Shown: piece after piece, positions 12,367 to 64,000 of the stretch
Layout of the letters: each line of letters begins with the position of its first letter
Position numbering within the stretch: the stretch's first letter is position 1
Assembly (NCBI RefSeq): GCF_000787835.1
Contig: NZ_BBPP01000001.1
Location: 41,009 to 105,008 of the forward strand
Length of the DNA stretch: 64,000 nucleotides
Direction: 5' to 3'
DNA from: Streptacidiphilus melanogenes
Lineage (GTDB): Bacteria > Actinomycetota > Actinomycetes > Streptomycetales > Streptomycetaceae
Translations under genes and position numbers: made by a program
The notes under the pieces: generated by a model
What the model was told of the DNA's origin: nothing
Databases searched by the model: none
What the model saw: the letters and a program-made list of their open reading frames with translations, nothing else

Positions 12367-13509
12367 ATGTCCGACGCGCATGCTCCGTACGACGCCCTGC
12401 TTCTGCTCTCCTTCGGCGGCCCGGAGGGCCCCGAGGACGTCGTGCCCTTCCTGGAGAACGTCACCCGGGGACGCGGTATCCCCAAGGAGCGTCTGGCCGA
12501 GGTCGGGCAGCACTACTTCCTCTTCGGCGGCGTCAGCCCCATCAACGCGCAGAACCGCGAGCTGCTCGCGGCGCTGCGCGCCGACTTCGCCGACCACGGC
12601 CTGGACCTGCCGGTCTACTGGGGCAACCGGAACTGGGCCCCCTACCTGGTGGACACCCTGCGCGAGATGGCCGCCGACGGCCACCGCCGCGTCCTGGTCC
12701 TGGCCACCAGCGCCTACGCCAACTACTCCGGCTGCCGCCAGTACCGCGAGAACCTCGCCGCCGCACTCACCGCGCTCCGCGAGGAGGGCGCACCCGGCGC
12801 GGCCGAGCTGCGGGTGGACAAGCTGCGGCTCTTCTACAACCACCCCGGCTTCGTCGGGCCGATGATCGAGTCCACGCTCACCGCACTCGACTCCCTCCCG
12901 GAGGCCGTGCGCAGGGGCGCGCGCCTGGCCTTCACCACCCACTCCATCCCCGACGTGCTGGCCGACTCCTCGGGCGCTCCCGGAGACCCCGCGCGAGGCA
13001 CGTCCGGCGGCGCCTACGTGGCCCAGCACCGCGAGGTCGCCCGCCTTATCGCCGAGGCCGTCGGCGAGGCGACGGGCGTGGCCGACCGCCCGTGGGAGCT
13101 GGTCTACCAGAGCCGCAGCGGCGCGCCGCACATCCCGTGGCTGGAGCCCGACATCTGCGACCACCTGGAGACCCAGCACGCGGACGGCGCGGCAGCGGTC
13201 GTCATGATCCCGATCGGCTTCGTCTCCGATCACATGGAGGTCAAGTACGACCTCGACACCCAGGCCCGCGAGAAGGCCGAGGAGCTCGGCCTGCCCGTGG
13301 CCCGCGCCGCCACCGTCGGCGCGGACCCGCGCTTCGCCGCGGCGATCCGCGAGCTCGTTCTGGAGCGCGCCGCGCGGACCCGCGGCGAGCGGGTCGCCCC
13401 CTGCGCGCTGGGCGCGCTCGGCGCTTCCCACGACGTCTGCCCGGTCGGCTGCTGCCCGGCCGCCCGCGGCGCGGCGCCCGCCGCGGCGGGCGAGGCCTGG
13501 ACCGACTGA
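12367..13509 (+). CDS. hemH: coproporphyrin III ferrochelatase
   Basis: 380 residues. Inserts ferrous iron into coproporphyrin III (or protoporphyrin IX) in the last part of haem synthesis; actinobacteria use the coproporphyrin-dependent route (CpfC). Recognised by [14 protein letters not shown] at the N terminus, [11 protein letters not shown], the conserved [11 protein letters not shown], and [11 protein letters not shown] with the catalytic His. The C-terminal [10 protein letters not shown] provides cysteines, in line with actinobacterial ferrochelatases that carry a 2Fe-2S cluster. ATG 12367 is used; no well-spaced Shine-Dalgarno is seen, but TAAAGA lies 7 nt upstream, so a leaderless transcript is possible. 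It is followed after 46 bp by the inositol monophosphatase gene on the same strand. Confidence 0.93.
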
Positions 13510-13555
13510 CGGCCCGTCCGCTCCACCTCCCGTGTTTCTCGAAGGGGAACGCACC

Positions 13556-14362
13556 ATGACGGATCATCAGAAGCTGTACGCGGAACTCCTCGACGTCGCC
13601 GTGGAAGCCGCGTCCCGCGCGGGCGCGCTGCTGCGCGACGGGCGCCCGGCCGATCTCGGCGTCGCGGCGACGAAGAGCAGCGCGGTCGACGTGGTGACCG
13701 AGATGGACCTGGCCGCGGAGAAGCTGATCACCGAGATGCTCGCCGAACGCCGTCCGGAGGACGGGCTGTTGGGAGAGGAGGGCGCGTCCCGGGAGGGGAC
13801 CAGCGGGGTGCGCTGGGTCATCGACCCGCTCGACGGGACGGTCAACTACCTCTACGGACTGCCCGCGTGGGCGGTCAGCATCGCCGCCGAGCTCGACGGC
13901 GAGGTCGTCGTCGGCGTCGTCGAGGTCCCGCCGCGCGGCGAACGCGTGCAGGCGGTGCGGGGTCAGGGCGCCCGCCTGAACGGGCGCGCCCTCACGGTTC
14001 GCAGCGCGCCCCCGATGGACCGGGCCCTGATCGGCACCGGCTTCGGCTACCTCCAGCAGCGCCGCGCCCGCCAGGCGGAGGTCCTCGCCTCGCTGCTGCC
14101 CCGCGTCCGCGACATCCGCCGCGGCGGCTCCGCGGCGGTGGACCTCTGCGACGTCGCGGCAGGGCGGCTCGACGGGTACTACGAGCGCGGCCTCAACCCC
14201 TGGGACTACAGCGCCGGCGCGCTCATCGCCGCCGAGTCCGGCGCCCTGGTCTCCGGCCGCCCCGGTCTCCCCCCGAGCCCGGAACTCACCGTCGCCGCAC
14301 CCCCCGGCCTCTTCGAGCCCCTCCAGACCGCCCTGGAGGCCCTGGGAGCCTGGCACGACTGA
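13556..14362 (+). CDS. inositol monophosphatase family protein
   Basis: 268 residues. Mg-dependent phosphatase fold with the three metal-site motifs: KSSAVDVVTEMD (first), LLGEEG and WVIDPLDGTVNYLYG (the DPxDGT motif), and GLNPWDYSAGALIAAESG (WD motif). Substrate in the cell may be inositol-1-phosphate or a related sugar phosphate or PAP; not resolvable from sequence. Start ATG 13556 with GAAGGGGA upstream; the frame extends to an upstream ATG but this is the usual family start. It lies 46 bp behind hemH and is likely co-transcribed. A perfect 10-bp-stem hairpin at 14484-14506 follows. Confidence 0.9.
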   Translation: MTDHQKLYAELLDVAVEAASRAGALLRDGRPADLGVAATKSSAVDVVTEMDLAAEKLITEMLAERRPEDGLLGEEGASREGTSGVRWVIDPLDGTVNYLYGLPAWAVSIAAELDGEVVVGVVEVPPRGERVQAVRGQGARLNGRALTVRSAPPMDRALIGTGFGYLQQRRARQAEVLASLLPRVRDIRRGGSAAVDLCDVAAGRLDGYYERGLNPWDYSAGALIAAESGALVSGRPGLPPSPELTVAAPPGLFEPLQTALEALGAWHD

Positions 14363-14750: not shown

Positions 14751-15098
14751 AGGTTGACCCCCTTGCTGGTGTCGTGGCGGCCCCGGGTTACGGGGGACCC
14801 GGCGCGGATGGCCGCACGGCGGGCGGGTGCGAAACACATGACACGCATGTGCCTGCAGCGCACATTGCGCTGGTGCATCGCGGGTGTAATCAGCGTCCTC
14901 CCCAAGCGTCCGAGCGGGGAAACCTCGGACGGGGAGCGATTTGCGTCACACCGGGGCCGAGCGCGGCCGGGCCCGGTCACGCCCCGCTTACCAGTGCTTT
15001 ACGGCGGGTCGAGGCAGGATGGAAGCCTGCCGGACACGGTGGGATGACTCCGTGCGCGCGCCCCCATCCGGCGCGCGCCCGCCCCGAAAGGACCTTTG
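14751..15098. promoter_or_regulatory. divergent regulatory region upstream of cutR
   Basis: 348 bp without a gene. It contains several inverted repeats. The clearest has perfect 8-bp arms, CGTCCGAG (14907-14914) and CTCGGACG (14924-14931), flanked by CTCCCC and GGGGAG that extend the stem with a bulge. A short palindrome around GCGCACATTGCGC lies upstream. A purine-rich GAAAGGA precedes the cutR GTG. The roles are not known; the region probably holds both divergent promoters and possibly a CutR autoregulatory site. Confidence 0.5.
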
Positions 15099-15752
15099 GT
15101 GCGAGTACTCGTGGTCGAGGACGAGCAACTGCTCGCCGATGCCGTCGCCACCGGCCTGCGTCGTGAGGCCATGGCCGTGGACGTGGTGTACGACGGCCAG
15201 GCCGCGCTGGACCGGATCGCGCTCAACGAGTACGACGTCGTGGTGCTCGACCGCGACCTGCCGCTGGTCCACGGCGACGACGTGTGCCGCAAGCTGGTCG
15301 AGGAGGCGCTGCCGACGCGCGTGCTGATGCTGACGGCCGCCGGTGACATCAGCGACCGCGTCGAGGGGCTGGAGCTGGGCGCCGACGACTACCTGCCGAA
15401 GCCGTTCGCCTTCAGCGAACTCGTCGCGCGGGTAAGGGCCCTGGGTCGGCGCGCGACGACCCCGCTGCCGCCGGTGCTGGAGCGGGCCGGGATCACGCTG
15501 GACCCGGGTCGCCGCGAGGTGCTGCGCGAGGGCAAGCCGATCTCCCTCGCGCCGAAGGAGTTCGCCGTCCTGGAGGTGCTGATGCGGGCCGGCGGGGCCG
15601 TGGTCTCCGCCGAGCAGCTGCTGGAGAAGGCCTGGGACGAGCACACCGACCCGTTCACCAACGTCGTCCGGGTCACCGTCATGACGCTGCGACGCAAGCT
15701 CGGCGAGCCCGCGGTGATCATCACGGTGCCGGGCTCTGGATACCGGATCTGA
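15099..15752 (+). CDS. cutR: response regulator CutR
   Basis: 217 residues, OmpR/PhoB family. Receiver domain: acidic pocket E8/D9, phosphoacceptor D51 (DYDVVVLDRDLP region), Thr/Lys switch with K101 in DDYLPKPF. The C-terminal winged helix contains LAPKEFAVLEVLMRAGGAVVS and ends TVPGSGYRI. The sequence is very close to Streptomyces CutR as I remember it, including LVHGDDVCRKL. CutRS is the conserved two-component system first linked to a copper/melanin phenotype and later to cell-envelope protein-folding stress. The GTG at 15099 is preferred over TTG 15096; GAAAGGA precedes it. It is separated from cutS by 3 bp, so they form one operon. Confidence 0.93.
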   Translation: MRVLVVEDEQLLADAVATGLRREAMAVDVVYDGQAALDRIALNEYDVVVLDRDLPLVHGDDVCRKLVEEALPTRVLMLTAAGDISDRVEGLELGADDYLPKPFAFSELVARVRALGRRATTPLPPVLERAGITLDPGRREVLREGKPISLAPKEFAVLEVLMRAGGAVVSAEQLLEKAWDEHTDPFTNVVRVTVMTLRRKLGEPAVIITVPGSGYRI

Positions 15753-15755
15753 GTC

Positions 15756-17066
15756 GTGACCACCACAGAGACCAGAGGCCTGCGGGGCGGCGGCAGCGGC
15801 AGCCACCCCGACCACGGGAACCACATCGACATCAGGGAGTCGCTGCTCCCCTTCCGGCCCACCCTGCGCATCAGGCTGACCATGTTCTACGGCGGGATGT
15901 TCCTGCTCGCCGGGCTGATCATGGTGTTGGCGATGTACCTCTTCGTGAACCAGGCCTTCAGTAGCGCCACCCGGATCCCCTCGATCCACGTGGGTCCGAA
16001 CGTCACGATCACCACGCAGGACGGCACGCCGCTCACCGGCGACGAGTTCCGCGCGTGGCTCTACGCCTACCAGCACCAGGAGGCGTCCGACGCCCTGCAC
16101 GTGCTGGTCTGGAAGTCCCTGGCGGCGCTGCTCGCGCTGCTGATCCTTGCGGTCTTCTTCGGCTACGCCATGGCCGGCCGCGTGCTGAGCCCGCTGGGCC
16201 GGATCACCCGGACCGCGCGCCAGGTGGCCTCCTCCGACCTGCACCGCCGGATCGAGCTGGACGGGCCGGACGACGAGCTCAAGGAGCTGGCGGACACCTT
16301 CGACGACATGCTGGACCGGCTGGACCGATCCTTCGAGTCGCAGCAGAAGTTCGTCGCCAACGCCTCGCACGAGCTGCGCACGCCGCTGGCGATCAACCGC
16401 ACCCTGCTGGAGGTCCAGCTCTCCGACCCGGCGGCCCCGCCGGAGCTGGTGCAGCTGGGCAAGACGCTGCTGGCCACCAACGAGCGCAGCGAGCAGCTGG
16501 TCGAGGGCCTGCTGCTGCTCGCCCGCAGCGACAACGAGCTGAGCGAGCGCAAGCCGGTCGACCTCGGCGAGGTGGCCCGGCAGGCGCTGGAGCAGACCCG
16601 CGGCGAGGCCGAGCAACGGGGCGTCCGACTCCGCTCGACGCTGCCGCCGCAGTCGGGCGAGGTCGTGGTGGCCGGCAACGGCGTGCTGCTGGAGCGGGTG
16701 GCGCTGAACCTGATCCAGAACGCGGTGAAGTACAACCTGCCCAAGGACGGCTGGGTGGACGTGCAGGTGCACGCCGCCGTCAACGGGGGCGGGGAGCTGG
16801 TGGTGGTCAACAGCGGCCCCGTCGTGCCCGGCTACGACGTGGAGAACATATTCGAGCCGTTCCGGCGCGGAAAGGGCCGGGAGCGGACGCACAGCGACAA
16901 GGGCGTGGGCCTCGGTCTCTCGATCGTCCGCTCGGTCGTCAGGGCCCACAACGGCTCGATCGAGGCCGTCCCGCGCGCCGAGGGCGGTCTGCTGATCCGC
17001 GTCCGGATCCCGGCCGCCAAGGCCCCGACGCTGCCTCCGCTGCCGACCAGGGGCGCCATCGGCTGA
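15756..17066 (+). CDS. cutS: sensor histidine kinase CutS
   Basis: 436 residues. Two membrane helices (about 43-66 and 115-140) flank an extracytoplasmic sensor of about 50 residues. HAMP (SPLGRITRTARQVASSDLHRRIELD), HisKA with H205 in NASHELRTPLAIN, and HATPase_c with N-box LIQNAVKYN and G-box GVGLGLSIVRS follow. It phosphorylates CutR. The sensor loop, and indeed the whole protein, contains no cysteine. My recollection is that well-studied Streptomyces CutS proteins have two conserved sensor cysteines, so this is a notable variant. GTG 15756 starts 3 bp after cutR. A hairpin at 17197-17224 follows. Confidence 0.92.
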   Translation: MTTTETRGLRGGGSGSHPDHGNHIDIRESLLPFRPTLRIRLTMFYGGMFLLAGLIMVLAMYLFVNQAFSSATRIPSIHVGPNVTITTQDGTPLTGDEFRAWLYAYQHQEASDALHVLVWKSLAALLALLILAVFFGYAMAGRVLSPLGRITRTARQVASSDLHRRIELDGPDDELKELADTFDDMLDRLDRSFESQQKFVANASHELRTPLAINRTLLEVQLSDPAAPPELVQLGKTLLATNERSEQLVEGLLLLARSDNELSERKPVDLGEVARQALEQTRGEAEQRGVRLRSTLPPQSGEVVVAGNGVLLERVALNLIQNAVKYNLPKDGWVDVQVHAAVNGGGELVVVNSGPVVPGYDVENIFEPFRRGKGRERTHSDKGVGLGLSIVRSVVRAHNGSIEAVPRAEGGLLIRVRIPAAKAPTLPPLPTRGAIG

Positions 17067-17233: not shown

Positions 17234-17263
17234 TACGGTGGCGTAACCTACGGAACCGTAGGT
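17234..17263. promoter_or_regulatory. palindromic operator upstream of acyl-ACP desaturase
   Basis: ACCTACGGAACCGTAGGT at 17246-17263 has perfect 8-bp arms with a 2-nt centre. Directly abutting it is a related half-palindrome, TACGGTGGCGTA (17234-17245). The pair lies 73-102 bp before the desaturase GTG. This is the form expected for a TetR-type fatty-acid regulator bound as two dimers at a desaturase promoter. The cognate regulator is not in the immediate neighbourhood. Confidence 0.7.
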
Positions 17264-17335: not shown

Positions 17336-18316
17336 GTGACGATCGCCCCCGACCGCCCCGCCGGCCGCACCGGCTGGACCGACGTGCAGCTCATCCACGC
17401 CCTGGACGAGGTCGTCGAGCGCGAGCTCAACCGGCACCTCGGCGTCGCCAAGGAGTGGATGCCGCACGAGTACGTGCCGTGGAGCATGGGCCGCGACTTC
17501 GACGGCCTGATGGGCGGCGAGGCCTGGTCGGTCGAGCAGTCCCAGGTCACCGACGTCGCGCGGGTCTCCCTCGTGGTCAACCTGCTGACCGAGGACAACC
17601 TGCCGAGCTACCACCACGAGATCGCGTCCATGTTCGGCCGGGACGGCGCCTGGGGCACCTGGGTGCACCAGTGGACGGCCGAGGAGGGCCGCCACTCGAT
17701 CGTCATGCGCGACTACCTGCTGACCACGCGCGCGGTCGACCCGGTCGCCCTGGAGCGGGCGCGGATGACGCACATGGCCGAGGGGTTCGAGTCGGACAAC
17801 AACCACTCGATGCTGCACTCGGTGGCCTACGTCTCCTTCCAGGAGCTCGCCACGCGCATCTCGCACCGGAACACCGGCCACAGCTCCGGCGACCCGATGT
17901 GCGACCGCATGCTGGCCCGCATCGCCACCGACGAGAACCTGCACATGGTCTTCTACCGGAACCTGCTGAAGGCCGCCCTGGAGATCGCCCCCGACCAGGC
18001 CATGCGCGCCATCGCCGACGTCGTGATCAACTTCCGGATGCCCGGCCACAGCATGCCCGGCTTCGAGCGCGCGGCGGTCCAGATCGCCGTCGGCGGGATC
18101 TACAACCTGCGGATCCACCACGACGACGTGCTGCAGCCGGTGCTGCGCCACCTGAAGGTCATGGAGATCACCGGTCTGGGCCCGGAAGGCCTCCAGGCCC
18201 AGCAGGAGCTCGGTTTGTTCCTCGACGGGCTCGATGCCCAGGCGACCCGCTTCGACGAGCGTCAGGCGGCCATTCTGGCCCGTCGGCAGGCCGCTCAGGA
18301 GCGCCGGGCCGGCTAG
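17336..18316 (+). CDS. acyl-ACP desaturase (ferritin-like diiron)
   Basis: 326 residues. Soluble stearoyl-ACP-desaturase family enzyme, which introduces a double bond into acyl-ACP or acyl-CoA with oxygen and reduced ferredoxin. Diiron ligand motifs are visible: TAEEGRHSIVMRDYL (EExxH) and ATDENLHMVFYR (DExxH-type second motif), with further ligand Glu residues in the N-terminal helices. Related to mycobacterial DesA1/DesA2. The GTG at 17336 is preferred: homologues start about 10 residues before GRTGWTDVQLI, and GAGAG lies upstream. Expression is probably controlled by the palindromes at 17234-17263. The C terminus ends with a charged Arg/Ala/Gln helix. Confidence 0.92.
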   Translation: MTIAPDRPAGRTGWTDVQLIHALDEVVERELNRHLGVAKEWMPHEYVPWSMGRDFDGLMGGEAWSVEQSQVTDVARVSLVVNLLTEDNLPSYHHEIASMFGRDGAWGTWVHQWTAEEGRHSIVMRDYLLTTRAVDPVALERARMTHMAEGFESDNNHSMLHSVAYVSFQELATRISHRNTGHSSGDPMCDRMLARIATDENLHMVFYRNLLKAALEIAPDQAMRAIADVVINFRMPGHSMPGFERAAVQIAVGGIYNLRIHHDDVLQPVLRHLKVMEITGLGPEGLQAQQELGLFLDGLDAQATRFDERQAAILARRQAAQERRAG

Positions 18317-62797: not shown

Positions 62798-62965
62798 TGT
62801 CCGCATTCCGGGGGCTTGGTTGCCGCCATGTCTTCAGGAAGATAACGAATGGATTCGGATCGCCTGTTCATCGACTTTAATTATTGACGTCAGCCTGGGG
62901 TGCGGGGTTGACTCCTCACACCTCGGTCGCAGTGTGGCGACCGCGTCAGGGAGGCACCCCAAACG
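62798..62965. promoter_or_regulatory. xylF upstream region
   Basis: 168 bp with an AT-rich run (CGACTTTAATTATTGACGTC at 62872-62891), containing TTGACG at 62884-62889, and a second TTGACT at 62908-62913. No matching TANNNT box is obvious. AGGGAGG lies at about 62949-62954, before the xylF ATG. Control by the ROK protein is expected. Confidence 0.55.
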
Positions 62966-64000
62966 ATGAACAGCACTCTGCGCCGCACGGTCGTGGTAAC
63001 CACCGCCGTTTCCATCGCGCTCGGCCTGGCCGCTTGTGGCAAGGCCGGCAGCTCCAACGCCAGCTCGTCTTCTTCCTCCAGCTCCGCCGCCGGCGGCTCC
63101 CAGGCCATCGGCCTGCTGCTCCCCGAGAACACCACCACCCGGTACGAGCAGTTCGACAAGCCGCTGTTCGAGGCCAAGGTCAAGGCCCTGGCCCCGAACG
63201 TCACCGTCCAGTACGCCAACGCCGGTGGCAGCGCCCAGACCCAGGCGCAGCAGGTCCAGACGATGATCAACCAGGGCGTCAAGGTCCTCGTGATCGACGC
63301 CCAGGACTCGGCCCAGATCAAGGCCTCCGTCCAGGCCGCCCACGACAAGGGCATCAAGGTCGTCGCCTACGACCGCCTGGCCCAGGGCCCGGTCGACGCC
63401 TACGTCTCCTTCGACAACGAGAAGGTCGGCGAGCTGCAGGGCCAGGGCCTGCTCCAGGCCATGGGCTCCGCCGCGACCGCGTCCGCCAAGGTCGTCGAGA
63501 TCGACGGCGACTCGGCCGACCCGAACGCCGCCGACTTCAAGAAGGGCTTCACCACCGCCGTCCAGGGCAAGGTCGACATCGCCTACGACGCCTCCGGTCT
63601 GTGGAAGCCCGACGTGGCCGCGCAGAAGGCCACCGCCGCCTTCAACCAGCTCGGTGCGAAGAACGTCGCGGGCGTCTACTCCGCCAACGACGGCATGGCC
63701 GCCGGTATCGTCACCTCGATGAAGAACGCGGGCGTCAAGGCCCCGATCGGTGGCCAGGACGCCCAGCTCGACGCGGTCCAGCGCATCGTGGCCGGCACCC
63801 AGGCGTACACGGTCTACAAGGCCTACAAGCCGGAGGCCGAGGCGGCCGCCACGCTCGCCGTCGACCTGCTGAACGGCCAGTCCATCACCTCGGTCGCCAC
63901 CGCCACCAAGACCAGCCTCTCCGGCAACACGGTCCCGTCCGACCTGCTCACCCCGGTCCTGCTGACCAAGGCGAACATCAAGGACACCGTCGTCGCCGAC
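62966..64000 (+). CDS. xylF: xylose/sugar ABC transporter substrate-binding lipoprotein (3' truncated by window)
   Basis: 345 codons, open to the right edge. Lipoprotein signal peptide: MNSTLRRTVVVTTAVSIALG, then lipobox L21-A-A-C24; Cys24 becomes the lipid-anchored first residue. A Ser/Ala linker leads to a type I periplasmic-binding-protein fold (IGLLLPENTTTRYEQFDKPL, VYSANDGMAAGIVTSMKNAG), very like the xylose-binding XylF/ChvE family. It delivers sugar to the XylGH transporter, whose genes should follow outside the window. Start ATG 62966 with AGGGAGG upstream. Confidence 0.92.
   Translation, partial: MNSTLRRTVVVTTAVSIALGLAACGKAGSSNASSSSSSSSAAGGSQAIGLLLPENTTTRYEQFDKPLFEAKVKALAPNVTVQYANAGGSAQTQAQQVQTMINQGVKVLVIDAQDSAQIKASVQAAHDKGIKVVAYDRLAQGPVDAYVSFDNEKVGELQGQGLLQAMGSAATASAKVVEIDGDSADPNAADFKKGFTTAVQGKVDIAYDASGLWKPDVAAQKATAAFNQLGAKNVAGVYSANDGMAAGIVTSMKNAGVKAPIGGQDAQLDAVQRIVAGTQAYTVYKAYKPEAEAAATLAVDLLNGQSITSVATATKTSLSGNTVPSDLLTPVLLTKANIKDTVVAD

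Follow-up and report, generated by a model that had tools for sequence, protein, structure and literature searches.

The window, a stretch of 64,000 nucleotides from Streptacidiphilus melanogenes, carries a cutRS locus. The sensor histidine kinase gene cutS (15756..17066, +) has a GTG start and encodes 436 aa; its translation contains no cysteine at any of the 436 residues, which confirms the earlier observation that both the sensor loop and the kinase as a whole are Cys-free. The extracytoplasmic sensor loop spans about residues 66-115 (15951..16100, +), the span first proposed. It is followed by a HAMP domain (residues 139-190; 16170..16325, +) and by HisKA (196-260) and HATPase_c (309-421) domains (16341..17018, +), giving a HAMP-HisKA-HATPase layout in Pfam, and the model alone predicts two transmembrane (TM) helices. 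All three domains exceed their Pfam cut-offs, so the catalytic part is normal, as had been anticipated. The nearest named relative among the best 80 of 181 matches is S. neutrinimicus (97%).

The response regulator gene cutR (15096..15752, +) ends 3 bp before cutS and encodes Response_reg and Trans_reg_C domains, with a recognition helix, DPFTNVVRVTVMTLRRKL, as in Streptomyces. Two upstream genes serve as syntenic markers: 12367..13509 (+, start inferred), which we take to be hemH (ferrochelatase), and 13532..14362 (+), presumably an inositol-monophosphatase-like gene (IMPase). On the other side, a fatty acid (acyl-ACP) desaturase gene (PF03405; 17336..18316, +, start inferred) adjoins cutS, and an operator-like palindrome, CCTACGGAACCGTAGG, lies in its promoter (17247..17262), which is without a CutR-like box.

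Orthology of CutS and the reach of the cysteine absence

The neighbours of cutS are conserved whether or not the kinase has a pair of loop cysteines (Cys+ or Cys-). Among the named loci, taken from the best 80 of 181 matches, hemH is found at 53 of 55 Cys+ and 24 of 25 Cys- loci, IMPase at 54 of 55 and 25 of 25, and cutR at all 55 and all 25. IMPase, cutR and cutS also occur together in eight of nine regions of the outgroup family f17, the ninth being cut by a contig end. The CutR recognition helix is identical in every displayed variant of 17 Streptomycetaceae genera; some outgroup CutR rows deviate from it, a few by several residues. By position and sequence, the window gene is a true positional orthologue of CutS, and the conserved gene order and recognition helix suggest that the sensor changed while the output stayed. 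The idea that the window kinase is a paralogue mistaken for CutS is almost certainly wrong: its own genome does contain 33 matches to it (CutS itself included), but the synteny with hemH, IMPase and cutR already refutes this reading, and identity to Streptomyces CutS is 60-65%, compared with only 41% for the next-best kinase in the same genome. A second, Cys-bearing CutS copy was also considered and rejected, as that next-best kinase (L002) has no loop cysteine; this check found a readable kinase in five of the nine loci L002-L010, among them L005, which is CssS.

The original prediction correctly ascribed sensor cysteines to Streptomyces CutS: in McLean et al. 2025 (PMC12802291), two sensor cysteines are invariant in more than 100 Streptomyces proteins and are proposed to report disulfide state. 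The same paper counts at least two extracellular cysteines in only 6.9% of CutS reciprocal-best hits in 2,936 genomes from all bacteria. Within the best 80 of 181 matches, the loop pair is present in 55 named relatives (54 titled Streptomyces and 1 Wenjunlia) and absent in 25 (5 Streptacidiphilus, 11 Kitasatospora and 9 titled ‘Streptomyces’), 17 of which have a single cysteine inside TM2; because this set holds the best matches only, distant Streptomyces are under-sampled in it. In a tree of 128 rows, all nine Cys-free rows titled Streptomyces nest within the Kitasatospora group. We note these as mis-titled records (L019, L020, L022, L025, L028, L030, L031, L034 and L035), and the sensor cysteines of CutS could act as a quick check of genus labels. 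Cysteines after residue 150 are absent in 78 of the best 80 of 181 matches, so a Cys-free cytoplasmic half is unremarkable.

Across the family, 199 of 200 genomes have a CutS match. We read the loop in 17 Streptomycetaceae genera, several of them represented by one genome, and found two cysteines in 10 (g5, g6, g7, g8, g9, g10, g12, g13, g16 and g17) and none in 7 (g1, g2, g3, g4, g11, g14 and g15). The genus of the window (g1, Streptacidiphilus) has a CutS match in 13 of 14 genomes, and all 12 readable loops lack the pair; the loops of L179 (contig end) and L102 (a run of N, in the same genus) were left out of the counts. All 21 rows drawn from seven further families likewise lack the pair. 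Absence that is shared clade-wide rules out chance and identifies a conserved clade trait. In the genera sampled, comparison of the loops shows the pair to be confined, within Streptomycetaceae, to the Streptomyces-plus group. The window CutS had been cast as a departure from a rule, an emphasis that is misplaced given that the readable loops of Streptacidiphilus, Kitasatospora and five further genera, and every row from the other families, are also without the pair. An alignment of orthologues had been proposed as the deciding comparison, with a Cys-free majority counting against the idea; outside the Streptomyces-plus group most orthologues do lack the cysteines, but inside it they have them. 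The observation of a Cys-free CutS is thus confirmed, and the interpretation first placed on it is partly supported.

Gain or loss of the cysteine pair

We constructed a tree from CutR and cytosolic CutS, with the sensor columns excluded (84 rows, 490 columns). From 171 distinct rows, 7 were dropped for a missing or short CutR, truncation or N (in L188 and L189, CutR lies on the opposite strand), and the remaining 164 were thinned to 128, which make up the all-row tree and of which 84 were used here. On the 84-row tree, one change of the cysteine trait suffices. The outgroup and the basal genera g2, g4 and g15 are Cys-; so is the Streptacidiphilus-Kitasatospora clade, which includes g3 and g11 and has support of 100/99. 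All Cys+ rows group together, a clade whose support is weak to moderate (74/57; 71% of bootstrap trees). An alternative tree that places the g8 row L162 and g10 outside the Cys+ clade, and that needs two changes, is not rejected (p-AU 0.07). The spacing of the loop cysteines is 9 in g10 (segment positions 50 and 59), 12 in g12 and 16-24 in most other genera, and the different spacing in g10 makes two origins of the pair possible.

Secondary loss would mean that the Streptomycetaceae ancestor, or the ancestor of all but g2, g4 and g15, had the pair and that the Streptacidiphilus-Kitasatospora clade lost it. We regard this as unlikely. The well-supported clade does stand beside the Cys+ group, and it is without the CutR-like htrA3 core that basal g2 has (see below), which could point to at least one loss in this clade; but secondary loss needs two or more changes, compared with one for gain, and g2, g4, g15 and all 21 rows from other families argue against it by being Cys-. 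On the tree, the pair was most likely gained once, in the Streptomyces-plus lineage, rather than lost in Streptacidiphilus.

CutR sites, CssS and the desaturase neighbour

All 28 Cys- genomes and 21 of the 22 Cys+ genomes carry an htrA3-like gene, G032 having a paralogue-level match only; the gene is so named by homology and because the published sites TATATAAA and TAAATAAA occur upstream. The consensus TAWATAAA, with at most one mismatch, precedes this gene at 8 of 21 Cys+ loci; all eight belong to the 15 Streptomyces, and four of them are exact matches. It was found at none of the 28 Cys- loci, including that of the genome of the window (G000), where absence of the consensus does not equate to absence of binding, and in none of nine paralogue promoters. 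In the promoter alignment, most Streptomyces htrA3-like promoters have a TAAAG-type core in the same register. The core RTAAAGR occurs at 14 of 21 Cys+ htrA3-like promoters (12 of 15 Streptomyces) and 4 of 28 Cys- promoters, with the qualification that it was shaped on the promoters before counting, so that its p-value is not independent for Cys+; the Fisher tests on the site counts, moreover, take no account of relatedness. Three of the Cys- matches account for 3/3 promoters of basal g2, all at the same promoter position, and the fourth (L282, g1) is a ribosome-binding site. With that match set aside, the core is found in 0 of 22 promoters of the clade of the window (g1, g3, g11 and g14); it is also found in neither of two promoters of the Cys+ genus g6, so site and cysteines do not simply go together. 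A looser form of the core was dropped, having more antisense than sense matches in Cys- promoters (11 versus 8). The presence of the core in g2 suggests that the CutR-htrA3 link may predate the cysteine pair: from these motifs, a CutR-like site at htrA3 seems to be older than the cysteines and to be missing in the clade of the window.

Three printed Kitasatospora htrA3-like promoters share a TAAGGATTCTTA-like element, possibly a diverged site. In two Streptacidiphilus genomes and one Kitasatospora genome (L239, L245 and L247), a conserved leader, which we presume resembles a TPP riboswitch, lies upstream of the htrA3-like gene, before a divergent permease-like gene; the Cys+ genomes G076 and G017 have a different divergent gene there, read as a phosphodiesterase. 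The CutR box is rare: 374 kb contain 7 matches when one mismatch is allowed, and no exact match. Upstream of htrB-cssRS, where 10 of 25 regions were readable (15 being without the protease), no CutR site was found in G000 or in the one readable Streptomyces, and there was one antisense one-mismatch match, in g5. The window contains TAATTAAA at 62876-62883 (-), with an ORF at 62966, read as a sugar-binding protein, 82 bp further on; 0.15 such matches are expected in the window. TAATTAAA is among the bound sites listed in the CutR paper (McLean et al. 2025, PMC12802291).

CssS, likewise a two-TM sensor kinase, belongs to the same stress network, and the genome of the window has the htrB-cssR-cssS order (L230). 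We found CssS matches in 27 of 30 genomes searched; the three without a match at 1e-70 all have a Cys+ CutS. All 29 CssS loci (27 genomes), which cover each of the Cys- CutS genera tried, have a cysteine pair in a loop of about 118-153 aa (the loop cut also caught a TM1 residue in three loci), whereas the loop of the window CutS is about 50 aa long and has none. Its occurrence in all Cys- CutS genera tried implies that the CssS pair is older in the family than the CutS pair. Two Kitasatospora genomes (G128 and G104) have a second CssS-like kinase (L256 and L259) with no htrA-like gene within 1.5 kb, and in both this second copy outscores the other copy against Streptacidiphilus CssS.

A PF03405 desaturase lies beside cutS in 5 of 7 Cys-free genera and in 0 of 10 Cys-bearing genera sampled. 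By locus, it is found at 41 of 43 in Cys- family genera versus 0 of 39 in Cys+ genera, counted in 1.5 kb flanks of which a few are at contig ends; the named loci from the best 80 of 181 matches (25 of 25 Cys- versus 0 of 55 Cys+) overlap with these counts. Gene order and sensor type therefore switch nearly together (window 17336-18316; L011-L035, L091-L120 and L150-L177), with g3 and g15 as exceptions. This association is what favours a membrane-state sensor, in which the tiny loop would sense the state of lipid or bilayer and the operon would work with the adjacent acyl-ACP desaturase; DesK is a parallel for a kinase that works with a desaturase. We consider this reading very improbable. No CutR-like box was found in any of 66 desaturase promoters (59, plus 7 of g2 and g4), which weakens the lead that the neighbour offers and makes us reject control of the desaturase by CutR, and the gene is served by a separate promoter that carries a palindromic operator. 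In addition, g3 and g15 are Cys- without an adjacent desaturase, and the pattern of desaturase and cysteines represents few events on the tree. A palindrome like CCTACGGNNCCGTAGG, preceded by CAACYTACGGTG, recurs in the printed desaturase promoters of Streptacidiphilus and g11, and a variant form in those of Kitasatospora, g2 and g4; the strict form occurs in 3 of 25 named Cys-free loci (from the best 80 of 181 matches). From these promoters, the palindrome looks like the operator of a separate repressor.

Sensor structure and implications

In the AlphaFold model of the window CutS, residues 37-71 form the first helix and 84-86/92-94 a small hairpin, and from residue 95 a helix continues into TM2. 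The modelled stretch of S. griseus CutS shows the same succession of elements (TM1 helix, hairpin, helix into TM2), with Cys 56 after the hairpin and Cys 74 in the last helix; these align with D89 and Y105 of the window CutS. Model confidence is weak for both (mean pLDDT 67 and pTM 0.42 for the window CutS; 70 and 0.46 for the S. griseus stretch). In the mechanism that we propose, the Cys-free loop, consisting of the hairpin and the helix into TM2 and HAMP, would hold and switch the kinase by non-covalent contacts, and the window CutS would answer some cue from the envelope that is not the redox state of its own thiols. A disulfide (C56-C74 in the modelled S. griseus stretch) would later have been superimposed on the same loop element in Streptomyces as an added redox lock that keeps the kinase off; judging from the models, it may staple an element that ordinary contacts hold in the Cys-free form. 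If Streptacidiphilus senses secretion stress through thiols at all, CssS, which keeps its cysteine pair, would be the kinase responsible.

The statement that this CutS ‘must sense something else’ therefore survives in part: a protein without the loop pair cannot use that internal disulfide, but the Cys-free form appears to be the older design. We found no functional data on Cys-free CutS in a limited full-text literature search that included Kitasatospora and Streptacidiphilus. The published C85S,C103S change in S. venezuelae CutS yields a constitutively active system (McLean et al. 2025, PMC12802291), and by analogy the window protein, as the natural equivalent, could be always on for want of the disulfide lock. 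We doubt this: the Cys- loops keep a shared pattern, unlike a decaying sensor (the majority consensus is FNxxLxxxQ before TM2 in a mostly Cys- alignment), a permanently active kinase is unlikely to have been retained by 199 of 200 genomes of the family, and the mutant result need not transfer to a protein that never had the bond. We think it probable, instead, that the window encodes a CutS orthologue in the ancestral Cys-free form, which switches by non-thiol means and to which a disulfide was added later in Streptomyces.

Compared with CutRS of S. coelicolor and S. venezuelae, as described by McLean et al. in 2023 (PMC10433416) and 2025 (PMC12802291), the window shares the gene order, the HAMP-HisKA-HATPase kinase and the CutR recognition helix, but is without the sensor cysteines and without a recognizable CutR site at the htrA3-like promoter, and has a desaturase downstream. 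Lacking two loop cysteines, the window CutS is, on its sequence, a CutS orthologue and not a member of the disulfide-sensing form. The Cys-free CutS homologues of McLean et al. 2025 show the same absence; they are, however, a count of reciprocal-best hits over 2,936 bacterial genomes, whereas the relatives described here are positional orthologues inside Streptomycetaceae, with the trait placed on a tree. Cys-free CutS homologues at large are already in print; the tree placement and the contrast with CssS come from the present analysis.

A broader scenario, to which we give only a small chance, is that CutRS was an old envelope- or membrane-state sensor, ancestrally located beside an acyl-ACP desaturase within Streptomycetaceae, and that Streptomyces lost the neighbour, gained the disulfide and turned the system into a redox and secretion-stress switch, CssS already being one. 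If this is true, Streptacidiphilus and Kitasatospora, with their Cys-free CutS, would offer a living control for the addition of a disulfide sensor to an existing kinase. The disulfide model of CutS rests on cysteines that are invariant in Streptomyces, and Cys-free positional orthologues with the same response regulator suggest CutRS signalling that is independent of that bond, which makes them natural partners for swapping domains. Of the two secretion-stress kinases, CssS, with its cysteines in every locus examined, stands out by contrast as the older candidate for a thiol sensor.
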